DNA from: Planctomycetota bacterium
Lineage (GTDB): Bacteria > Planctomycetota > GCA-002687715 > CAIWVZ01
Direction: 5' to 3'
Assembly: GCA_017853435.1 (NCBI GenBank)
Contig: JAFMJN010000006.1
Coordinates: 1-32,658 of the forward strand
Length of the DNA: 32,658 nt
Shown one piece after another: positions 5,651-32,451 of this stretch; positions within the stretch are counted from its first letter, which is position 1, and every line of letters starts with the position of its first letter. Below the pieces are notes generated by a model that worked only from the letters and a program-made list of their open reading frames with translations, searched no databases and had not been told where the DNA came from. Both the position numbers and the translations under genes were made by a program.

Positions 5651-5797
5651 AGGGGAGGGAAGGTAGGGGTTTCGGCCCCTCCCCGCAAGCCGACCCCGCC
5701 CACCGGGCCGACCGATGGTGCGGCCCGCCGCGATCCCAAAGCGCATGGGTGAAAGCGCTTCGGGCTCGGTGGGTATTCGCGGGGAATCCCGTCCTCG

Positions 5798-6470: not shown

Positions 6471-6830
6471 TCAGGGGGATCGGCGTGGAAAAACCCGCAT
6501 CACATCGTCGATTTCGGAAACGACGGTGCGCCGGTCGGTTCCTTCGGGCGGGTGCGCCGCGTGCATGACGAGTGGGCGCAACGTTCCGCGTGCGATGGGA
6601 TAGGCGTCGAACTCGGAGCGGGCGAGCAGAGCGACCAGATCACGTGCGAGGGCTTCCGTTTCGGGCTCGTAGGGAGGAAGTGCCGCGAGTCTGGCGACAC
6701 CCGCACGGAAGGCCGAGATCGGATCCTTCGCGTCGCGCGCGATCGCGTTGGTGAAACCTTCGGCGGGGGCGTCCGTCTGGGCGCACGCGAACAGAAGCAC
6801 GACGCACGTCGATGCGATGCGTGGGTTCAT
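6471..6830 (-). CDS. Small putative lipoprotein of unknown function
   Basis: The 119-residue product begins MNPRIASTCVVLLFACAQTD, a signal-peptide-like N-terminus with LFAC as a plausible but imperfect lipobox (Phe at -2). The mature part is helical and acidic to neutral with no motif I recognise. The start is supported by the ATGA overlap with the stop of the HEAT/vWA gene, so the two are translationally coupled and may act together in the periplasm. The longer ORF-track version is Arg/Glu-rich shadow of the upstream gene. The tail ends DDVMRVFPRRSP. Confidence 0.7.
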   Translation of the reverse strand: MNPRIASTCVVLLFACAQTDAPAEGFTNAIARDAKDPISAFRAGVARLAALPPYEPETEALARDLVALLARSEFDAYPIARGTLRPLVMHAAHPPEGTDRRTVVSEIDDVMRVFPRRSP

Positions 6831-9139
6831 CGTGCGACGTAGGTGCCGCCGGTCAGTCGCGCGAGCCGCTTCATGAACTCCGCATCGTGATCCTTGCCGA
6901 CACCGACGCAGTGGATTTTCACCTTCTTGAGGTCGTTCATCCGCTGCATCTCCGACACGATCTGCCGAGGTTCGACGAGGCGACCACGATTCGGCTGTCC
7001 GTCCGACATGAGGAAAATGGTGTCGAGCGTCACCGTGTAGCGTTTGTCGAACGTCCCGCGGCCCGCCATCTCGAAGGCCTTTTCGAGCGGGTCGAAGATG
7101 TTCGTCGGTCCCGTCGCCTTGATGCCTTCGATGAACTTCACGGCATCGGCACGATTCTCCTTCGCGTTCGCCATCTTCGGCTTCCACACGGTGAAGTCGT
7201 GGTTGAAGAAGATCATGCCGAACATCGCGTCGTCGGGAAGCGAGCGGAGGGAAGCGATCATCTCGCGTTTCGCGATGTTGAGACGCGACTGCGCTCCGGT
7301 GGCCGCGTCGGCCTCGTTCATGCTCCCCGAGATGTCGAGGATGTACATGATGCGCTTCGAGCGGGTTTCGATGCCGTAGAAGGTGGTGCCGCTGCCCTTC
7401 TTCGCGCCGTCTTCACCCTTCGCGGTCTCGTCGTCCTTCTTCTTCTCGATGAGGGTCGGAAGTTTGCGGCCCGTTTCGAGCCACCAAGCATTCCACGCGT
7501 CACGTGTCGTGCCGATGTCTTTCCCGGCGAGATCCTTGAGCGCGGCGACGGCGGCCGTGCCGACCTTGCCCTTTTCGTCGACTACCGACACGAGCGATGG
7601 AACGCCGTCCTTGCGGCGGAGGCGGCCGAGCGCCGTGCATGCGGCGGCACGGACGTCCGAAGACGCTTTCACTTGGACTTCGGCGATGATCGCCTGGAGA
7701 GGAAGGACCGCCGAATCGTCGTCCTGATGACCGAGGGACTCGACGGCGGCGAGGCGTCGGGCCTCCTCGTCCTTTTCCTGAGGTCCGAAGGGCGCTTCGA
7801 GGGCGAGGCGGTTGAGCGCGGAACGCACCGCTTCATGCTTCACGGGACCCGCCGCTTTGGTGTAGCGAATCGCCCGCGGGAAGTCCTTCGTCGCGTTCGC
7901 GCGTGCGAGCGGTTCCGCGATGAGACGCGCCGCAGCGCGTTCGGCGATGAGTTTCGGTCGGGAAGAGATCGCCTTTCCGACGGCCGCGCGCCGCGCTTCC
8001 GCGAAGTCCGCGTCGTCGACGGCGACTCCCGCGGCGCCGCCCGCGGCTTTCGCGACTTCCGGGGGCGGACCTTTCAGTCGGCGCCGCCCGTCGACCGCGG
8101 GGACCATGCCGTCGACGGCGAGCAGCCGACGGACTCCCGCGAGCAGACCTTTGTCACCGACGGACGTGATCGCGGTCCCGCGCGTCAGCGGGTCGCTCGC
8201 ATCGATGTCCGCCACGATCTTCTTCAGATTCGCCGCTTCACGACCGACGAAGTCCTTCCAAAGGGTCGCGTTGTCGAAGAAGGTGATTCCGGTCAGGTCT
8301 TCGAGCGCCTCGACGATTTCGTCGAGGACGCGACCTTCTTTACCGGGTAGCGCGTCTGCGAGAGGCGCGAGGGCGTCGAGCGAACCGATATCGGCGAGTG
8401 CGCGGGCCGCGCTGACCTGAACGCTCCACGTTTCGTCGTTCAACGCCTTGCCGAGAACTGACATCGCGGAGGCGTCGCCGAGGCGACCGAGTCCGTCGCA
8501 TGCGGCGGCGCGCACCGCGGGTTCCTGCGAGCGCACGACGAGTTCGAGAAGCGAGGCCCGCGCTTCGGCCGTGGGCGTCGCACCGAGGACTTTCACGAAC
8601 AGGACTTTGTCGTCGACTTTGGATTGCCGTTCGACGGCGTCGGCGATGTCGATGATGGATTTCGCTCGGAGCAATCCGTCGAGACCGGCGAGCAGGCGCC
8701 CCGCGCCGTCGAGACAGAGGGCGGTCACGGTTTCCGCGTCGACGAGCTCGGCGTCGAGCTGAGCCATCTTCGCTTCGAGTTCCTTCGCCTTCTTTTCGAT
8801 GGGTGCAGCGGTGCCGACGGTGACGGCTCGTCCCTTCGACAGCTGATCGTCGATCTGTTTCCAAAGCTCTTTGACTTGTTTCCCGAGGGAAGCGATCTCG
8901 GAGCGATTCTTGTCGATCTTCGCGTCGGCCGTGCGGATGGCGGCGAGGAACTCCGGGACGAGCGTCGGATCCTTCGTGGCGACCGCCGCTTCGACCGTCG
9001 CCGTGCGCGCCTCGGTGCCCTTCTCGCGGGCGATGTCGCGGACCTTGCCCTTCAGGGCGGCCACGTCCGCTCCTTGGGCGCCGAGGTCGGCGAGGAAGAG
9101 GAGCAGCACGGCCAAGAGTCGGAGCGTGGAGAGCTTCAT
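6827..9139 (-). CDS. Secreted HEAT-repeat protein with C-terminal vWA domain
   Basis: The 770-residue product starts with a clear Sec signal peptide (MKLSTLRLLAVLLLFLADLGAQG). A coiled-coil-prone stretch follows at about 60-125 (KQVKELWKQIDDQL and KKAKELEAKMAQLDAEL). Several HEAT-type helical repeats follow, for example AVRAAACDGLGRLGDASA and SVQVSAARALADIGS, with a second set near SDVRAAACTALGRLRRKDG. A von Willebrand A domain fills about 595-770, with MIDAS motif DISGS at 602-606 and the later SDGQP aspartate. Such proteins act as metal-dependent adhesion or scaffold proteins in the periplasm or at the surface; the partner is unknown. The start at 9139 is preferred over 9160 because it gives a proper signal peptide and has GGAA upstream. 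A 119-residue putative lipoprotein gene overlaps its stop. Confidence 0.85.
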   Translation of the reverse strand: MKLSTLRLLAVLLLFLADLGAQGADVAALKGKVRDIAREKGTEARTATVEAAVATKDPTLVPEFLAAIRTADAKIDKNRSEIASLGKQVKELWKQIDDQLSKGRAVTVGTAAPIEKKAKELEAKMAQLDAELVDAETVTALCLDGAGRLLAGLDGLLRAKSIIDIADAVERQSKVDDKVLFVKVLGATPTAEARASLLELVVRSQEPAVRAAACDGLGRLGDASAMSVLGKALNDETWSVQVSAARALADIGSLDALAPLADALPGKEGRVLDEIVEALEDLTGITFFDNATLWKDFVGREAANLKKIVADIDASDPLTRGTAITSVGDKGLLAGVRRLLAVDGMVPAVDGRRRLKGPPPEVAKAAGGAAGVAVDDADFAEARRAAVGKAISSRPKLIAERAAARLIAEPLARANATKDFPRAIRYTKAAGPVKHEAVRSALNRLALEAPFGPQEKDEEARRLAAVESLGHQDDDSAVLPLQAIIAEVQVKASSDVRAAACTALGRLRRKDGVPSLVSVVDEKGKVGTAAVAALKDLAGKDIGTTRDAWNAWWLETGRKLPTLIEKKKDDETAKGEDGAKKGSGTTFYGIETRSKRIMYILDISGSMNEADAATGAQSRLNIAKREMIASLRSLPDDAMFGMIFFNHDFTVWKPKMANAKENRADAVKFIEGIKATGPTNIFDPLEKAFEMAGRGTFDKRYTVTLDTIFLMSDGQPNRGRLVEPRQIVSEMQRMNDLKKVKIHCVGVGKDHDAEFMKRLARLTGGTYVAR

Positions 9140-9271: not shown

Positions 9272-9277
9272 TATCAT
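9272..9277 (+). promoter_or_regulatory. -10 element placed for a leaderless mRNA of the M1 peptidase gene
   Basis: TATCAT ends exactly six bases before the ATG at 9284, where transcription from it would start at the A of the start codon. No Shine-Dalgarno is present and no -35 box is evident. The same TANNNT-N6-ATG geometry occurs at three other genes in the window. Confidence 0.5.
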
Positions 9278-9283
9278 GAGCCC

Positions 9284-11281
9284 ATGTCGCTTCGAAAAAC
9301 CGTGGTTTGGGGTTGGCTCGCGTTCGCCGCGTTCCTGTGCGTCGGTTGCGGAGGCGACGACGACGTTTGGATCGAGGTCGACGAGCCGGGCTGGGTCGTC
9401 GCGAATCCGCAATCGCATCGCACCTACGAAGACACGTTCCGACCGATCGCCTTGCCGAGCCCGAACGCTCAGCGCACCGCGAGCGGAGCCCCCGGCCGTG
9501 CCTACTGGCAGCAGCGGGCCGATTACGCGATCGACGTCGAACTCGACGCCGCGCGGAACGAGATTCGCGGGACTGCCACGGTCACGTACACGAACCAGTC
9601 TCCGGATCCGTTGCCGTACGTGTGGCTTCACTTGGAGCAGAATCTGTTTCGGAAAGGGTCGCTCGGATCCGTGGCGCACCGCGGATCCGGTCGATTCAAC
9701 ACCACGGGTTCATCGTCGCTCGGCTACGACATCGAAGCCGTGACCACCGCCGCGGGCGAACCGCTGTCGCTGGCCGTCTACGACACGGTCGGTCGACTCG
9801 ATCTCCCGAGTCCCGTCGCGCCGGACGGCGGCAAGCTCGTCTTCAAGATCGGATGGCGCTTCCGGATTCCGGAAGACGAAGTGATGCGCTTCGGCATGGA
9901 GCAGGTTCAGGACGGCGTCATTTGGGAGTTGGCGCAATGGTTCCCGGCCGTCGCGGTCTACGACGATGCGCATGGTTGGAACACGCTTCCGTATCTCGGA
10001 AACGGCGAGTTCTACACGAACTTCGGAACCTACGACGTCGCCATCACGGTGCCGAGCGATCATCTCGTCGCCGCGACGGGCGTGCTCCTCAACCCGGAAG
10101 ACGTGTTGACGCCGATTCAACGTGAGCGGTTGGATGCGGCGCGGCGGACGACGTCGACCGTCACCATTCGCGGAATGAACGAAGTGCGCGATCCCGGATC
10201 GCGTCCGAAGGCCGGCAAGAAGGCCACGTGGAAGTTCCGGGCGGACGACGTCCGCACGTTCGCGTGGGCGTCGTCGCCCGCGTTCATTTGGGACGCGTGC
10301 TCGACCGGCGGTGTGTTGGTGCAGTCGTTCTATCCGAGAGAAGGCGCAAGGACGTGGGCGAAGGCCACCGACGATCTCCGCTTTTCCATCGAGCACTACT
10401 CGAAGACGTGGTTCCCGTATCCGTACCCCGTTGCGACGAACGTCAACGGTCGCGAAGGCGGCATGGAGTACCCGATGATCGTCTTCTGCTCCGAGCGCGA
10501 AGACCCGTACGACCTCTGGTACGTCACGACGCACGAGATCGGGCACAACTGGTTCCCGATGATGGTCAACAACGACGAGCGTCGGCACGCGTGGATGGAC
10601 GAAGGTCTCAACACGTTCATCAACTGGTATGCGTCGATCGCCCGTTATCCGGGTCGCCCATGGCCCGGGCGGTGGCGCGGAGTCGAACCCTCCGCCCGAT
10701 TCCCCGACTACGGCGACGTGATTCGCGACCCTCGACGTCAACCGATCGAAACGGTCCCCGATCGAATCGAAGATCCGCAGATCGGAACGACGCAGTACCG
10801 CACCGTCGCGGTCGGTCTCGTCGTGCTTCGCGAGAAGATTCTCGGACCTGAACGATTCGACGCCGCCTTCCGCGAATACATCCGTCGTTGGGCGTTCAAG
10901 TCGCCGCGTCCCGCCGATTTCTTCCGCACCATGGAGGATGCCGCGGGTTGCGATCTCGCGTGGTGGTGGCGCGGATGGTTCCTCTCGACCGACACTCTCG
11001 ATCACGCGCTCGAATCCGTCCGTTCCATGCCCGATCAGCGCGGAACGATGGTGACGGAGATCGTCGTGAAATCCGTGGGTCGCATGGTTTGCCCCGCGGA
11101 ATTCGAAATCCGCTGGGACGACGGAACGACGAGCCTTCATCGAATCCCGGTCGAGGCGTGGGCGACGACGGATCGCTACGTCTTCACGTTGCAGGATCGG
11201 CGGCGTGCCGCCGCCGTGCGGTTGAATCCCGACGGCGGATGGCCCGACGTCAATCCCGCGAACGATCAGTGGGTTCGCTGA
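9284..11281 (+). CDS. M1-family zinc metallopeptidase, putative lipoprotein
   Basis: This is a gluzincin aminopeptidase-type enzyme. The zinc motif HEIGH is at residues 417-421 and the third ligand is Glu440 in WMDEGLN, the correct 18-residue spacing. The substrate-side motif GGMEYP (392-397) stands in the place of GxMEN. A conserved YRTVAVGL segment later carries the likely transition-state tyrosine. The N-terminus MSLRKTVVWGWLAFAAFLCVGC is a lipoprotein-like signal with Cys22 as probable lipidation site, followed by GGDDD. The 665-residue length fits the bacterial secreted M1 subgroup. The ORF track extends 220 residues further upstream, but that part is antisense to the HEAT/vWA gene. Expected location is the periplasm or outer membrane, degrading peptides for import; a POT peptide transporter is encoded about 5.7 kb downstream. 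Confidence 0.9.
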   Translation: MSLRKTVVWGWLAFAAFLCVGCGGDDDVWIEVDEPGWVVANPQSHRTYEDTFRPIALPSPNAQRTASGAPGRAYWQQRADYAIDVELDAARNEIRGTATVTYTNQSPDPLPYVWLHLEQNLFRKGSLGSVAHRGSGRFNTTGSSSLGYDIEAVTTAAGEPLSLAVYDTVGRLDLPSPVAPDGGKLVFKIGWRFRIPEDEVMRFGMEQVQDGVIWELAQWFPAVAVYDDAHGWNTLPYLGNGEFYTNFGTYDVAITVPSDHLVAATGVLLNPEDVLTPIQRERLDAARRTTSTVTIRGMNEVRDPGSRPKAGKKATWKFRADDVRTFAWASSPAFIWDACSTGGVLVQSFYPREGARTWAKATDDLRFSIEHYSKTWFPYPYPVATNVNGREGGMEYPMIVFCSEREDPYDLWYVTTHEIGHNWFPMMVNNDERRHAWMDEGLNTFINWYASIARYPGRPWPGRWRGVEPSARFPDYGDVIRDPRRQPIETVPDRIEDPQIGTTQYRTVAVGLVVLREKILGPERFDAAFREYIRRWAFKSPRPADFFRTMEDAAGCDLAWWWRGWFLSTDTLDHALESVRSMPDQRGTMVTEIVVKSVGRMVCPAEFEIRWDDGTTSLHRIPVEAWATTDRYVFTLQDRRRAAAVRLNPDGGWPDVNPANDQWVR

Positions 11282-13632: not shown

Positions 13633-14996
13633 CTCTTTGTACGTCGATGGCCGATCGTCTGCTCGACGCGTTTCCGAGCGGCTCCTACACGACGGTCGGG
13701 TTGTTGCGGGTCTTCGACATCGTCGAATCACGCGATGTTCCGACGGCCTGTGTCGAGTGTCGCGTCGCTCCGTGCATCAAGGTGAATCCGGACTTCGTGG
13801 CGAAGCACGCCAAGACACCCGAGCACCTTCTCATGTTGGTGTTGCATGAAGTCCACCACGTGATCTTGGGGCATACCCGCATGTTCGATGGCCCGGGACG
13901 CCTCATGAACTTCGTGTTCGACGTCGTGATCAACGGAATGCTGTGCCGAGCGTTCAACGGCGAAGCCTACACGTCGTTCTTCACGTCGTACTACGACGAG
14001 GGGAATTTCCCTCTTTGTCTGCTGCGGCCACCGCCGGGTTGGCCGAAACGCAGCGACGGCGTGGCCTCCGGGCTGAACGCGCTCGCGCCGAATTTCCGTT
14101 CGGTCGTCGCGGAAATTCACCAGCAGATCTATCGATTCGGAGCGTCGTACGAAGAGGTCATGTCCGTGCTGAAGTACTGCACGCCGAAGTTGCCGGACTT
14201 GGAGGCGGCGCTCATGGCGGCGCTTCTCGGCACTCACGACGAGGAGACGGGTCCGGCGCCGAACCTCGCAGGTGAGTTGACGGCGGCGACTCCCGAACTT
14301 TCCTCCGCGTGGCGGTCGATTCCTTGGCCTTTCCAAGATCGATGGGACTTCGAAGTACGACGGACGACGGTCGCTCCACGCCGCCACCGTTCTCCGCGTG
14401 AGGTGCTCATCGGATTGATGAAGCGTGTCGCACGGCGGGGAGCGTCGGGAAGAGCGCCGCGAAAGAGCATGGGGGCGGGCGTCACCGTAGGAGCGATTCC
14501 GACGTGGGGTCGGCGCGAGCGTTGCCTGAAGTCGCTCGGAGTGACTCCGGTCTTACATACGAACGCGACTTCGCGACCGACGGTCGTTCGAGATGTGGAC
14601 CGTGTGCACGTCTACGTCGACGTCTCGGGAAGTGTGAATACGGTGATCGGCGCGCTTTACGGAGCGGTCCTCGCATGTTCGGAGTTCGTCCATCCGCGGG
14701 TCCATCTGTTTTCGACGGAAGTCACGGACGTGTCCTTCCGGGAACTCGCCGCCGGCGTCGTCCGAACGACGGGAGGAACGTCGATCGAATGCATCCTCGC
14801 GCACATGCGTCGACACGATGTGCGGCGTGCGGTGTGGATCACGGACGGATGGGTCGGTGTTCCGTCGAAGTCCGACGAAGCGTGGTTGAAGCAGCGACGG
14901 ATCGCCGTCGCCTATGTCGGACCTAGTCCGAACAGTCTATCGATCGAATCGTTCGTCGTCGCCGAGGCGGTACTGCCGACGGGAGGTGGATCGTGA
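13629..14996 (+). CDS. Putative metallopeptidase with C-terminal vWA-like domain (DUF2201/COG3864-like)
   Basis: The 455-residue product joins two modules. The N-terminal part has LHEVHHVILGH (residues 72-82), a HExxH zinc motif with another His at 82, followed by FVFDVVINGML (96-105), matching the putative-metallopeptidase domain (DUF2201-type) that precedes vWA-like domains. The C-terminal part has a complete MIDAS: DVSGS (331-335), Thr384 in TGGTS and Asp406 in WITDGW. A basic linker (RRHRSPREVL, RKSMGAG) separates them. The start at 13629 overlaps the previous stop by 4 bases and excludes the 66 extra residues in the ORF track. It is the expected partner of the MoxR-type ATPase. The stop overlaps the GTG of the MetK-like gene. 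Whether it is a working protease is not known. Confidence 0.87.
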   Translation: MTLCTSMADRLLDAFPSGSYTTVGLLRVFDIVESRDVPTACVECRVAPCIKVNPDFVAKHAKTPEHLLMLVLHEVHHVILGHTRMFDGPGRLMNFVFDVVINGMLCRAFNGEAYTSFFTSYYDEGNFPLCLLRPPPGWPKRSDGVASGLNALAPNFRSVVAEIHQQIYRFGASYEEVMSVLKYCTPKLPDLEAALMAALLGTHDEETGPAPNLAGELTAATPELSSAWRSIPWPFQDRWDFEVRRTTVAPRRHRSPREVLIGLMKRVARRGASGRAPRKSMGAGVTVGAIPTWGRRERCLKSLGVTPVLHTNATSRPTVVRDVDRVHVYVDVSGSVNTVIGALYGAVLACSEFVHPRVHLFSTEVTDVSFRELAAGVVRTTGGTSIECILAHMRRHDVRRAVWITDGWVGVPSKSDEAWLKQRRIAVAYVGPSPNSLSIESFVVAEAVLPTGGGS

Positions 14997-16117
14997 ATCC
15001 AGTCATGAAGGCGGCGGAATGGGTGTTTCCGGGACATCCCGACAAGTTGTGCGACGCCATCGCGGACGCGGTGGTCGAAGAAGCGGTGCGACGCGATCCG
15101 TTCGCGCTCGTCGGCGTCGAAGCGGCGGTGCATCGGCGATCGGTGCATGTGACGGGACGCGTTGCGGGAGTCGGGGCCGAGACGATTCCCGTCGACGCTC
15201 TCGTACGCGCCGTGTATGCAAGTGCGGGCTTCGACGCCCGCTTCGGGCCCGCCCCGGAAGATCTCGTCGTCGATGGCGACTTGGTGCTCGAGGCGCCGCT
15301 CGAAGGCGAAGCCGAGATTCGCGGCATCGCCGTGGACCAGGCGGTGTGCATCGGTTGGGCCAACGATCTCCCCGGAGCGCACCATGTACCGGTCGAGCAT
15401 GCGTTGGCGCGAGCGGTGGCTCGCGGCCTTCACGCCTTGCGCCGAGAAGCCCCCGAACTCGCACTCGGTCCGGATGGAAAGGTGCTTGTCGTGCTTGCCG
15501 AGACGTCGGTCGGCGGCGCGACGGTCCGGCAGCTCGATGCGCTGCACGTGTCGCTGCAGCAGGGCTCTTCGGGGGATGCCGTCGCCCTTCATCGTGCCGT
15601 GCGGAGGCGGGTCGAGGAAGTTTTGAAGCACGAAGCGGGACGTATCCCCGGGCTCTCTCCGAAGTCCCCCGACCGCCTTTCGGTCGTCGGGGCGGGGATC
15701 TTCGAAGTCGGAGGACCTCATGGCGACAACGGTTTGACGGGCAAGAAGACGGTGGTCGACGCCTATGGGCCCCGGGTGGCGATCGGGGGCGGGGCGCTTT
15801 CCGGCAAGGACTTCTTCAAGGTCGATCGTGCGGGGGCGCTCCACGCCCGTCGTTTGGCGAAATGCGCGGTGGCGTTGGGCGTCGCTTCCGAAGTACGGGT
15901 GGAACTCGGTTGGTTTCCCGGCGATCGCGAGGCGCGTTTGCTCGGTGCGTACGGACCATCGGACGTGCCGCTCGATCTTCGTGCCTTGGCGGCGCGTACC
16001 GACCTGTCTCTCGCGCGCTCCGGCGAAAGCTTCTTCACCGGGGGCCTCGTCGAACGAACGCGGTGGGGGGCCTTCTTCGACGTCGAGGCTCCTTGGGAGG
16101 TCCTTCCACGTTGGTGA
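14993..16117 (+). CDS. Divergent S-adenosylmethionine synthetase (MetK-like)
   Basis: The 374-residue product has nearly all methionine adenosyltransferase landmarks: GHPDK (14-18), LGPDGK (158-163), GGPHGDNGLTGKKTVVDAYG (240-259) and GGGALSGKDFFKVDRAGA (265-282), covering the equivalents of E. coli His14, Asp16, Lys165, Arg/Lys244-245, Lys265, Lys269 and Asp271. The normal GAGDQGxMFGYA lid loop is instead GIAVDQAVCIGWA, keeping only the Asp-Gln. Catalysis of SAM formation from ATP and methionine therefore looks possible but with altered loop control or substrate. The GTG start overlaps the vWA stop (GTGA) and has GGGAGGTG upstream. Being locked into a MoxR/vWA operon rather than near methionine genes suggests a dedicated paralogue; it could also be the only MetK of the genome, which the window cannot tell. 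Confidence 0.85.
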   Translation: MNPVMKAAEWVFPGHPDKLCDAIADAVVEEAVRRDPFALVGVEAAVHRRSVHVTGRVAGVGAETIPVDALVRAVYASAGFDARFGPAPEDLVVDGDLVLEAPLEGEAEIRGIAVDQAVCIGWANDLPGAHHVPVEHALARAVARGLHALRREAPELALGPDGKVLVVLAETSVGGATVRQLDALHVSLQQGSSGDAVALHRAVRRRVEEVLKHEAGRIPGLSPKSPDRLSVVGAGIFEVGGPHGDNGLTGKKTVVDAYGPRVAIGGGALSGKDFFKVDRAGALHARRLAKCAVALGVASEVRVELGWFPGDREARLLGAYGPSDVPLDLRALAARTDLSLARSGESFFTGGLVERTRWGAFFDVEAPWEVLPRW

Positions 16118-16209: not shown

Positions 16210-16215
16210 TAGACT
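16210..16215 (+). promoter_or_regulatory. -10-like element placed for a leaderless O-methyltransferase mRNA
   Basis: TAGACT ends six bases before the ATG at 16222. Only CGGGAC lies between, which is a poor Shine-Dalgarno. The geometry matches that seen at 9272, 29489 and 32458. Confidence 0.4.
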
Positions 16216-16221
16216 CGGGAC

Positions 16222-16878
16222 ATGTCGGAAACCGCGACGCCCGTCACCCCCGCCCATCTCGAATACATCCGCGCCCGCACCGACGCCGAAGGACCGTTTC
16301 TCGAATCGCTGCGCCGGGCCGCGGTTGGCGCGGGCATCCCCTCGATTGCGATCGCCGTCGAGCAGGGGAGTTTTCTCTCCACCCTCGTCCGCGTCTCGCG
16401 TGCCCGCGACATCGTCGAAGTCGGGACCCTCGCGGGGTATTCCGCCTTGTGGATGGCGCGCGGACTCCCCGACGGCGGGCGGATCGTGACCATCGAGAAG
16501 AGTCCGCATCACGCCGCGTTCGCCCGTGAATGGGCGGGAAAATCCCCATGGACGGACAAGGTCACCGTCGTCGAGGGGGCCGGGGGCGACGTGCTGCCGA
16601 CGCTTTCGTCCTCCGCGTTCGACGGTGTGTTCCTCGACGCCGACAAGGCGGGCTACGCGGCCTACGTCGACGAAGCGCATCGACTGTTGCGCCCGGGCGG
16701 CTGGATCGTGGTCGACAACGCATTCGCATTCGGTGAACTGTTCGTGGAGGCCCCGAAGGATCGGGAGACCCCGGCGGTGAAGGCGTTCAACGACCGATTC
16801 GCGAGCGACCGTCGCTTTTCCGGCCTCATCGTCCCCATGGGCGATGGTTTCTGGATGGCGACCAAGGTCGCCCCCTAG
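16222..16878 (+). CDS. SAM-dependent O-methyltransferase (family 3, CCoAOMT-like)
   Basis: The 218-residue enzyme belongs to the metal-dependent catechol/caffeoyl-CoA O-methyltransferase type. The SAM loop is VEVGTLAGYSALWMA (about 55-69); VTIEKSPHHAAFA supplies the ribose-binding acidic residue, and the metal site is FLDADKAGY and IVVDNAF. Length and motif order are normal for the family, which transfers a methyl group from SAM to a vicinal-dihydroxy aromatic compound in the cytoplasm. It lies 104 bases behind the MetK-like gene, so a shared transcript is possible, but it may have its own promoter (see 16210). Its natural acceptor cannot be read from the sequence. Confidence 0.9.
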   Translation: MSETATPVTPAHLEYIRARTDAEGPFLESLRRAAVGAGIPSIAIAVEQGSFLSTLVRVSRARDIVEVGTLAGYSALWMARGLPDGGRIVTIEKSPHHAAFAREWAGKSPWTDKVTVVEGAGGDVLPTLSSSAFDGVFLDADKAGYAAYVDEAHRLLRPGGWIVVDNAFAFGELFVEAPKDRETPAVKAFNDRFASDRRFSGLIVPMGDGFWMATKVAP

Positions 16879-16944: not shown

Positions 16945-18693
16945 ATGTCCAACCCCAGCACCCCGACCAACGAACGGACCCTCTTCGGCCATCCGATCGG
17001 TCTGTTCACGCTCTTCGTCACCGAGATGTGGGAGCGTTTCAGCTACTACGGCATGCGCGCCATCTTCACCCTCTTCATGGTGAAGGCGCTCGCGTTCGAC
17101 AAGGAGCAGGCGTCGCGCGTGTACGGCAACTACACGGGTCTCGTCTACCTCACGCCGCTCCTCGGTGGCTACGTGGCGGATCGTTTCTGGGGAAATCGCA
17201 AGTCGATCATGTTCGGCGGCTTCCTCATGGCCGTCGGGCAGTTCCTCATGTTCGGTGCGGGCACGGTGTACAAGGCGCAGCCGGAACTGGCTCCGACGCT
17301 CATGTACGCCGGACTCGGATGCCTCATCTTCGGCAACGGGTTCTTCAAGCCGAACATCTCGACGATGGTGGGTCAGCTTTATCCGCAGGGCGACAAGCGC
17401 GTCGACTCGGCGTTCACCATCTTCTACATGGGCATCAACCTCGGCGCCTTCATCGCGCCGCTCGTGTGCGGCTACCTCGGCGATACGGGCAACGCGGAAG
17501 ACTTCCGCTGGGGCTTCCTCGCCGCGGGCATCGGCATGGTGCTGAGTCTCGTGTGCCTCGCCGCCTTCGGCGACCGCACGCTCGTTTCGCCCACGGGCGG
17601 CGACGTCGGCAAGGCTCCGAATACCGCACGTCAGACCGAGACGGCTGCTTCGTCGGAAGCGAAAGCCTCTCCGATGTCGCTCGTCGTTTGGGTCGGCGCC
17701 TTCATCGGTCTCTACGTCCTCTTCTCGAAGACGTGGTGCGAGGGTGACGTGATCGGCTCGGCCATCTACGCCCTCACCATCGCGGCACCGGGCTACATCA
17801 TCTCCGATCCGTCGCTGTCGAAGATCGAACGGACCCGCATTTGGGTCATCTACATCATCGCGTTCTTCGTCATCTTCTTCTGGTCGGCGTTCGAGCAGGC
17901 GGGCGCTTCGCTCACCTACTTCGCGGAAGAGCAGACCAACCGCACCGTCGGATCGACGGTCGTTCCGGCGTCCTACTTCCAAGCCATCAACGCGGTGGCC
18001 ATCGTCCTCCTCGCTCCGGTCTTCGTCAGCCTTTGGACGCTGCTCGGCAAGCTCAACAAGGAACCCGCGTCGCCCTACAAGCAGGCGATCGGATTGGGTC
18101 TCCTCGCGGTGGGCTACTGGGTCATCGCGGTCGGCGTGAAGGACTTGGCCCCGGGCACGAAGGTGTCGATGTTCTGGCTCGTCGCTCTCTACACCATCCA
18201 CACGCTCGGCGAACTCTGCCTGTCGCCGATCGGTCTTTCCATGGTGAACAAGTTGGCACCCGTGAAGGTCGCCTCGCTTCTCATGGGTGTGTGGTTCTTG
18301 TCGACGTCGGCGGCGAACAAGTTCGCCGGAACGCTTTCCGAGTACTACCCGGAGCCGGTCGTCGCCGTGACCGCGGTCGAGAACGCCGGCAAGGCGCAGA
18401 ACGCGGATCTTTTCCCGGCGAATTACGTCAAGGAAAAGAGGAAGGTCAACGGCGTCAACGTGATCGCGCTCGAGAGCATCAAGTTCGGCGAGATCAAGGA
18501 TGAAGGCGCCCGCGCTTCCGCGCGCACCGCGCTCGAGCGCGACTTGGTGGACAACGCGAAGACGTTCGCGGGTATGAAGATCGCGAACCTCTACGACTTC
18601 TTCATGCTCTTCGTCTACATGTCGGGAGCGTCCGCCGTCTTGCTCTTCGTGCTGTGTCCGATGCTGCTCAAGATGATGCACGGCGTCAGATAG
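16945..18693 (+). CDS. POT/PTR-family proton-coupled oligopeptide transporter
   Basis: The 582-residue inner-membrane protein belongs to the POT branch of the major facilitator superfamily, which imports di- and tripeptides with protons. The proton-coupling motif EMWERFSYYGMRA is in helix 1 (about residue 27 onward). The PTR signature is present as GFFKPNISTMVGQLYP and FTIFYMGINLGAF. Many further hydrophobic helices follow, for example IWVIYIIAFFVIFFW. An extra soluble segment of about 70 residues (VENAGKAQNADLFPANYVKE to FAGMKIANLYDF) precedes the last helix. GAGGA lies 4 bases before the ATG. A convergent hairpin ends the unit. A metallopeptidase lipoprotein gene 5.7 kb upstream could supply peptides, but that link is only suggestive. 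Confidence 0.95.
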   Translation: MSNPSTPTNERTLFGHPIGLFTLFVTEMWERFSYYGMRAIFTLFMVKALAFDKEQASRVYGNYTGLVYLTPLLGGYVADRFWGNRKSIMFGGFLMAVGQFLMFGAGTVYKAQPELAPTLMYAGLGCLIFGNGFFKPNISTMVGQLYPQGDKRVDSAFTIFYMGINLGAFIAPLVCGYLGDTGNAEDFRWGFLAAGIGMVLSLVCLAAFGDRTLVSPTGGDVGKAPNTARQTETAASSEAKASPMSLVVWVGAFIGLYVLFSKTWCEGDVIGSAIYALTIAAPGYIISDPSLSKIERTRIWVIYIIAFFVIFFWSAFEQAGASLTYFAEEQTNRTVGSTVVPASYFQAINAVAIVLLAPVFVSLWTLLGKLNKEPASPYKQAIGLGLLAVGYWVIAVGVKDLAPGTKVSMFWLVALYTIHTLGELCLSPIGLSMVNKLAPVKVASLLMGVWFLSTSAANKFAGTLSEYYPEPVVAVTAVENAGKAQNADLFPANYVKEKRKVNGVNVIALESIKFGEIKDEGARASARTALERDLVDNAKTFAGMKIANLYDFFMLFVYMSGASAVLLFVLCPMLLKMMHGVR

Positions 18694-23431: not shown

Positions 23432-23455
23432 GGTTTTCGAGTAGGATCGAGGGCC

Positions 23456-29488: not shown

Positions 29489-29494
29489 TACCAT
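29489..29494 (+). promoter_or_regulatory. -10-like element placed for a leaderless manC mRNA
   Basis: TACCAT ends six bases before the manC ATG at 29501. The intervening CATGAC is not a Shine-Dalgarno. The whole divergent gap is only 17 bases, so a leader of normal length cannot fit unless it lies inside the neighbouring gene. Confidence 0.45.
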
Positions 29495-29500
29495 CATGAC

Positions 29501-30574
29501 ATGGATTCCAAGCGTCTCGTGGCCGTGATCATGGCCGGTGGCAGCGGTACCCGATTCTGGCCCCGCAGCCGTCGCAACCGACCGAAGCAGTTTCTCTCCT
29601 TCACGGGCGAAGACTCTCTGCTGACGTCCACGGTCAAGCGCCTCGAGGGGCTCGTCGCACCGGAACAGACGTTCGTGATCACCGGCGCGGTCCACGCGAA
29701 ACTCGCGCGTGAGCACACCGGACTTCCGCCCGCGTCGATCATCGCCGAACCGGAGCGTCGCGACACGGCGGCGTGCATCGGTCTCGGCGCCATGCTCGCG
29801 CAGTCCGTCCGCGAAGATGCCGTGATGGTGGTCCTCTCGGCCGACCATCTCATCGAGCCCGCCGCTTCGTTCCGCGATACGTTGATGCGGGCGGCCGAGC
29901 TCGCCGACGCGCACGACGCGCTCGTCAGCATCGGACAGCGGCCGACCCGGCCCGCGACGGGGTTCGGCTACATCGAACTCGGGAAACGCATCGACGATCG
30001 CACTCCCGTCGGATTCAACGTCACCTCGTTCCGCGAAAAGCCGGACGCCGAAAAGGCGCGCCGTTTCCTTCAGGCGGGGAACTTCCTTTGGAACTGCGGG
30101 ATCTTCGCGTTCACCGCCCGCGGCATTCTGAAGGCGATGCGTCAGCACCTGCCCGAACTCGCGCAGGGATTGGACAACATCACCGACCCGCGGGATCCCG
30201 CGTGCATCGAACGCGCGTGGACGGCGCTGCCGAAGATCTCGATCGACTACGGTGTGTTTGAAAAGGCCACCAATCGGCTCGTCGTCGAATCGACGTTCCG
30301 TTGGGACGACGTCGGCACCTTCGAAGCGATCGCCCGCTACCGCACACCCGATGCGTCGGGCAACGTCGCACGCGGAGACGCCGCGTTCCTCGAAGGCACG
30401 AAGAACTGCCTCGTCGACAACGACGCGGGGGGGCTCGTCGTGATCTCCGGCGTGAGCGACGTGGCGGTCGTCCGATCGGGCGACGTCGTGATGGTCGTTC
30501 CGCGTCGCGATCTCGAGAGCGTTCGCAACGTGGTGGACCGTCTCGCCAAGGACGGACGGCACGAGGTGCTGTGA
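29501..30574 (+). CDS. manC: Mannose-1-phosphate guanylyltransferase
   Basis: This enzyme makes GDP-mannose from mannose-1-phosphate and GTP for polysaccharide and glycan synthesis. The 357-residue product has the nucleotidyltransferase signature VIMAGGSGTRFWPRSR followed by RPKQFLSF, then VVLSADHLIEP, GFGYIELG, the sugar-binding FREKPDAEKA and NFLWNCGIFAF. It is the short, single-function form without the phosphomannose isomerase domain. The beta-helix-like C-terminal part (ISIDYGVFEKA, FRWDDVGTFEA) is present. The ATG at 29501 gives a normal N-terminus. The stop overlaps the likely GTG start of ruvX. Product use is unknown; the GT-C-like membrane protein gene nearby could be a consumer of activated sugars only in a loose sense. 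Confidence 0.95.
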   Translation: MDSKRLVAVIMAGGSGTRFWPRSRRNRPKQFLSFTGEDSLLTSTVKRLEGLVAPEQTFVITGAVHAKLAREHTGLPPASIIAEPERRDTAACIGLGAMLAQSVREDAVMVVLSADHLIEPAASFRDTLMRAAELADAHDALVSIGQRPTRPATGFGYIELGKRIDDRTPVGFNVTSFREKPDAEKARRFLQAGNFLWNCGIFAFTARGILKAMRQHLPELAQGLDNITDPRDPACIERAWTALPKISIDYGVFEKATNRLVVESTFRWDDVGTFEAIARYRTPDASGNVARGDAAFLEGTKNCLVDNDAGGLVVISGVSDVAVVRSGDVVMVVPRRDLESVRNVVDRLAKDGRHEVL

Positions 30575-31020: not shown

Positions 31021-32451
31021 TCAACGGCGCCCCAGCGCGACGCGTACCGCTTCGCGCCGCGGCGAAGCATCACGGAGGACGACGACCGCGCCGTCGTTGC
31101 CCGCGTACAGCGGGATCCAACCGAAACGTTCGGCGTTCTTCGGGAGGAAGGCCGTCGGGATCACGAGCATGTCGACGGCGTATTTCTTCGCGACCGCTTC
31201 GAGCAGAGCCGGATCGTCGACGCGAGACCATTCGGCCGCGAGCGCGGCGCCGAAGCGGGTGACGCGACCGTCGGTCGCGGTGCGGCAGTTCGGTCCGAGC
31301 ATCGAGGCGAGATAGCCACCCCACGCCGGAGGATGCGCGAGGTTCAGCGGAACTCCCAACGTACGGATCCACGTCGCGGCGGCGACCGGATAGCCGCGCC
31401 CCGCGGAGGCTTCTCCGAAAAGTCGATCTTCGCCGAAGGCGGCGACGGCACGCGCCTCTTCCGCGAGATGCAGGACGGGGACGGTCAGGAAAGCCGCCGC
31501 GCTCAGCGCAACGGCCGCGCCGAAGCGACGGACGCGTTCCGGTCCCCACGCCGCCAAGAGGGAGGCCGCCGCGAGATGAAGCCCGAAGACGAAGCGGACT
31601 CCCGTCCATGTCGTCAAAAGTGCAACCGCCGCGTCTCCCGGTCGGCATGCGACGAATCCCTTTCCGTCGCGACGTCGGACGAACTCCGCGAGCGTCGGGA
31701 GTGCCGCGAGCGCCACGGCGGCGAGCGCCGCCCACGCGGCCGGAAAGTCGCGCACGGGAAAGTCGGCGAGTCGACGCCATTCCGGAATGAGAGGTCGAAG
31801 CGGAGTCGTGTCGGCGGCGTACGCGAGTAGGGCGGACGGACCGTCGGGGTGGATCGCGAGTCCGACGACGGACGCCGCGAACGTCGCGACGGCGGCCTTC
31901 GGATTCGGGCCGATCAGGCGACCACCCGCGAGAAGCGGGGCGAAGATCGCGCCGGGGTGGAGGTTGGTCCAAAGCGCCGTGAGGCCGAAGACGCGAAGGG
32001 TGCGCCCGGGGGACTCGCGGTCGAGGAGGTCCGCCATCACCGGAACGAGGGCGAGGGTGATCAGGTCCGGACGAAGTCGGAAGCGATCGTCGCCGAGCGC
32101 CATCCACATCGCCGCGACGAGGAGACCCGCGAGCGGGGTGCCGCCGCGCCGTGCGCCGAGCCGAAACGCCGCCGAGGCCCCCAAGGCGCCGAGGGCCGCC
32201 GCCGCGATCCGAAGTCCGCCGACACCGAAATATCGGTGTATGGCCGCCATGAGCGTGTCGGAGAGCCAAGCCTGATGGTCGGGGGCCGTCGGCAGGGGCA
32301 AATGCGAGAACGGCTCGACGGTGGGCCAGGCGCCGTGTTCGAGGGCCAGCTGCCCGAGACGCAGATGCCAGTGGAAATCCATGTCCATGACGGCCGTGAA
32401 CCCGAGAAGGGCCCCGACGAGCATCACGAACGCATGAAAACCCCGCGACAT
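31021..32451 (-). CDS. Polytopic membrane protein, GT-C glycosyltransferase-like
   Basis: The 476-residue protein has many hydrophobic helices of Ala/Leu-rich type and a first loop reading VMDMDFHWHLRLGQLALEHG followed by EPFSHLP. This D-x-D...WH...G...P...PFS pattern is seen in a group of large membrane proteins of the GT-C glycosyltransferase fold that are common in planctomycetes and delta-proteobacteria. The C-terminal 130 residues are a soluble domain (NLAHPPAWGGYLASMLGPN, AVDMLVIPTAFLP), as in related enzymes. The acceptor and donor are unknown; a polyprenyl-linked sugar donor would be typical. The ATG at 32451 is six bases after TAACGT, fitting a leaderless start. Confidence 0.75.
   Translation of the reverse strand: MSRGFHAFVMLVGALLGFTAVMDMDFHWHLRLGQLALEHGAWPTVEPFSHLPLPTAPDHQAWLSDTLMAAIHRYFGVGGLRIAAAALGALGASAAFRLGARRGGTPLAGLLVAAMWMALGDDRFRLRPDLITLALVPVMADLLDRESPGRTLRVFGLTALWTNLHPGAIFAPLLAGGRLIGPNPKAAVATFAASVVGLAIHPDGPSALLAYAADTTPLRPLIPEWRRLADFPVRDFPAAWAALAAVALAALPTLAEFVRRRDGKGFVACRPGDAAVALLTTWTGVRFVFGLHLAAASLLAAWGPERVRRFGAAVALSAAAFLTVPVLHLAEEARAVAAFGEDRLFGEASAGRGYPVAAATWIRTLGVPLNLAHPPAWGGYLASMLGPNCRTATDGRVTRFGAALAAEWSRVDDPALLEAVAKKYAVDMLVIPTAFLPKNAERFGWIPLYAGNDGAVVVLRDASPRREAVRVALGRR

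Follow-up and report, generated by a model that had tools for sequence, protein, structure and literature searches.

Predicted leaderless gene starts from −10 boxes abutting ATG in a Planctomycetota genome

Some 9-10% of the genes in this Planctomycetota genome very probably have a leaderless or near-leaderless start from an abutting −10 box, beside genes led by a Shine-Dalgarno (SD) sequence. In this reading, a housekeeping (sigma-70-type) promoter would adjoin the gene directly, with the TANNNT hexamer that ends six bases before ATG as its −10 box. RNA polymerase would begin at the A of ATG, a position that we infer from the geometry and the base preference, and would produce an mRNA with neither a 5′ leader nor an SD sequence. 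A ribosome, probably the 70S particle, would then initiate on the 5′-terminal AUG, a step taken from the literature on other bacteria, in which translation from a 5′-terminal AUG is a known mechanism (PMC9031893). The predicted 9-10% would comprise genes with the abutting layout and a variant with a leader of 1-3 bases, and the coexisting SD-led genes would be more frequent within operons. The layout of the predicted promoters and its conservation are established by sequence statistics.

Four gene starts in the window and in a close relative

The window, the whole stretch of 32,658 nucleotides that was analysed, is one contig (C322) of a 2.9 Mb assembly in 331 contigs that is 93% complete. The assembly lacks a 16S rRNA gene, and no MYXO-CTERM-like tails turned up. 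The first-pass annotation had listed four gene starts in the window as TANNNT-N6-ATG lacking an SD sequence; all four read so at the exact coordinates, and an SD sequence is present at none of them. On the forward strand, TATCAT (9272-9277) lies six bases before ATG 9284 of a predicted leaderless gene for a lipoprotein-like M1-family peptidase of 666 codons (9284-11281), which is divergent from the gene at 6827-9139. TAGACT (16210-16215) and TACCAT (29489-29494) lie at the same distance from ATG 16222 of a predicted leaderless O-methyltransferase gene (PF01596, 16222-16878) and from ATG 29501 of a predicted leaderless gene for a mannose-1-phosphate guanylyltransferase-like protein (NTP_transferase, ManC beta-helix; 29501-30574). 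On the reverse strand, TAACGT (32463-32458) lies six bases before ATG 32451 of a predicted leaderless gene for a 476 aa protein of unknown family (31021-32451). The gene at 16222, with a same-strand gene 104 bases upstream, presumably heads a transcription unit.

The pattern is also rare by chance, as had been claimed. Because the TANNNT background at one offset is about 4 of 765 called ATG starts, with a chance of ~0.5% at a single start, only ~0.14 matches are expected at one offset among the 25 window starts. The excess corresponds to P ~4e-4 for three matches and P ~1e-5 for four, for an offset picked post hoc.

Three of the four starts were also chosen independently by a gene finder based on coding score. 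For the fourth gene, the gene finder alone took the in-frame ATG at 32424, nine codons further downstream. We favor ATG 32451, because the orthologue in a second genome of the same genus (G002) retains it together with TAACGT and the spacing. In the same relative, neither the hexamer nor the six-base distance has changed at ispG or at any of the four window genes. Across these five genes, no hexamer position differs (0/30), compared with 7/30 spacer positions and 55/300 positions in the 60 bases upstream.

Two further boxes, absent from the first-pass annotation, belong to candidate near-leaderless genes. TAGGAT (23442-23447, forward strand) lies eight bases before ATG 23456, and TACCTT (5660-5665, reverse strand), the weaker case, lies nine bases before ATG 5650.

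Two other window genes drew our attention for their protein sequences. The S-adenosylmethionine synthetase (14993-16117) matches Pfam in its N- and C-terminal domains, and its central domain scores weakly (23 bits, below the cut-off). The POT-family peptide transporter (16945-18693) has 80 listed relatives that are mostly from Bacteroidota (43-67% identity), and in this 65% GC genome it was possibly acquired by horizontal transfer.

Genome-wide spacing and promoter anatomy

A scan of the genome for enrichment at this offset, the refutation check set by the first-pass annotation, bore the pattern out, with 191 occurrences of TANNNT-N6-ATG, compared with 117 of the reversed pattern. Because the reversed pattern differs in base context and is a poor control, we added a spacer-shifted control; with a C required before ATG, the whole genome contains 156 matches at spacer 6 and 31 at spacer 15. 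These whole-genome counts are free of any bias from the choice of contigs. The positional profiles cover 1.43 Mb (65% GC), about half of the genome, in which about fifteen large contigs were taken from the list of pattern matches, giving a slight bias toward spacer 6. Counts per spacer length over these 1.43 Mb form a sharp single peak at spacer 6 (n = 93, compared with a background of ~24), and spacers 7, 8 and 9 form a shoulder (43, 37 and 48). To allow for the codon periodicity of TA patterns relative to ATG, we used a frame-matched background, over which the peak remains (93 vs 26, P ~3e-24) and spacers 7, 8 and 9 are also raised (P ~1e-4 to 7e-4). The pattern survives as well when the window is excluded (89 vs 24 at spacer 6).

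The same offset stands out among called genes. Our gene finder is home-made and not a curated annotation; it uses only the coding score, ignores upstream sequence, and called 1025 genes. TANNNT at spacer 6 precedes 43 of 765 ATG genes and 6 of 165 GTG genes, where other offsets give ~4 and <1, respectively. Another 16, 20 and 16 called ATG genes have the hexamer at spacers 7, 8 and 9, and we estimate the TANNNT excess at ~9-10% of genes. SD tetramers at the usual spacing are found at ~35% of starts, bearing out the first-pass proposal that two start modes coexist, and an SD-like tetramer is found in 7 of the 49 spacer-6 genes. The two signals differ in gene context. The spacer-6 box occurs in only 1 of 187 genes that overlap a same-strand upstream gene, compared with 21 of 248 divergent starts, and the SD trend is the reverse, with SD sequences relatively commoner in overlapping same-strand genes than at divergent starts.

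Bases outside those used for selection are also biased. Among the 43 spacer-6 ATG genes, 93% have C at −1, compared with ~64% of other starts; 74% have G at −14, the second base upstream of the box, and 51% have A at −8. With spacers 6-9 pooled, the −35 position at a 17-bp spacer to the box has raised T (31%), T (29%) and G (44%), with P ~3e-4, 1e-3 and 2e-2, too weak to call gene by gene. The extended pattern GNTANNNT-N5-CATG has 50 matches, located at 29 called starts, 13 in-frame alternative starts and 8 intergenic sites; none of the 50 is within or antisense to genes. The base preferences, the location at gene starts, the rarity in overlapping genes and the conservation all agree with the earlier reading of TANNNT as a −10-like element with a predicted transcription start at the A of ATG.

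We consider it unlikely that these are real −10 boxes whose transcripts usually carry leaders of 1-9 bases, or start inside the gene with a nearby downstream ATG as the true start codon. Such a reading could draw on the shoulder at spacers 7-9, on the downstream ATG taken by the gene finder for one of the four window genes, and on the manC orthologues of several genomes from another family of the order (L225-L230), which have TANNNT 14-16 bases upstream of the start and no SD sequence, a distance that would give a leader of ~8-10 bases. However, the highest peak is at exactly six bases, C at −1 climbs to 93% at that spacer only, and ATG 32451 is conserved together with its distance from the box. 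Since spacers 7-9 are raised, some genes may carry leaders of 1-3 bases, and the spacing is not strictly fixed.

A compositional or coding artefact, in which codon periodicity or upstream stop codons at a set distance from the next start would align TA..T with ATG, is far less probable still. Control patterns that contain TA do recur every 3 bases relative to ATG, and at several sites the box includes the stop codon of the preceding gene. But the peak persists over the frame-matched background, TAC/TAT boxes, which cannot be stops, have a peak of their own (53 vs 16), as do TAA/TAG boxes, no spacer-6 peak was found for GTG, TTG, CTG and other triplets in a raw scan of the 1.43 Mb, and the hexamer is conserved above its own spacer. 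Stop-codon spacing and coding periodicity are thus refuted as the cause of the whole class; any one site may still be chance.

Distribution among relatives and known leaderless systems

Outside the genus, orthologues vary in how they start. In another family of the same order, the GTG start of two ispG orthologues (~69% identity) is preceded by TATAGT at a six-base spacing, and the ATG of a third by TAGGAT at a five-base spacing. Several orthologues of the O-methyltransferase and of the M1 peptidase from outside the genus instead carry SD sites. Such a change between leaderless and SD-led starts among orthologues is expected, because Zheng et al. described mode switching. Across the phylum, a spacer-6 excess reaches P<1e-3 in 25 of 59 genomes (this one counted), the highest ratio being 6.3, and is absent from many of the 59. 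Predicted leaderless starts would therefore come and go among relatives, as judged from these 25 of 59 genomes and from orthologues that switch with SD-led starts.

The TANNNT-N6-ATG starts are a further lineage of a known leaderless phenomenon and no new kind of system. Zheng et al. (2011) reported TA-led (leaderless) genes in 207 of 953 bacterial genomes (PMC3160421), and leaderless transcription has been predicted in 21.6% of bacterial species (Lomsadze 2018, as cited in PMC9581028). Like the TA-led genes of Zheng et al., those here carry TANNNT ~10 bp upstream of the start codon, have the uninformative middle bases of GC-rich genomes, and stand alongside SD-led genes with orthologues that change mode. 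Their share of ~9-10% is below the averages in that survey (~19% in Actinobacteria, 39% in Deinococcus-Thermus, 16% in delta-Proteobacteria and 13% in Acidobacteria; PMC3160421).

The promoter anatomy also resembles that of Mycobacterium tuberculosis leaderless promoters (Cortes et al. 2013, PMC3898074), in which TANNNT occupies −12 to −7, in many cases extended to CGN-TANNNT, a C directly precedes the transcription start (−1), and the −35 element is weak or absent. In M. tuberculosis the starts were mapped by RNA sequencing, whereas those here are predicted, and a weak TTG at −35 is detectable here where none was found in M. tuberculosis (PMC3898074). In Deinococcus-Thermus, too, TANNNT ~6-7 bp before the ORF is an alternative to the RBS motif in one genome (PMC12340547). 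It serves nearly one-third of genes in D. radiodurans, compared with about one-tenth here, and the commonest box there is TACACT (PMC12340547), whereas here many boxes are of the TAG or TAC type with A as the fifth base. The general picture of leaderless transcription is unchanged; the signal allows gene starts to be corrected in this uncultured lineage.

Gene ends and short intergenic regions

At three loci (L016:2683-2695, L033:6036-6048 and L054:7764-7776), the TAA or TAG stop codon of the upstream gene forms the first three bases of the next gene's −10 box, and the next gene begins 9 bases after the stop. At L016, for example, ispG is followed by a radical SAM gene with a shared stop and box. 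It is doubtful that a stop codon serving as the first half of the next leaderless gene's −10 box is a regular, selected layout in operon-like neighbours; if so, a gene end and the next promoter would share bases, a small architectural variant.

Spacer-6 TANNNT also occurs on both genes of two divergent pairs, 39 (L137:8219-8259) and 63 (L138:6044-6108) bases apart. In each very short intergenic region, two abutting predicted leaderless promoters point apart.
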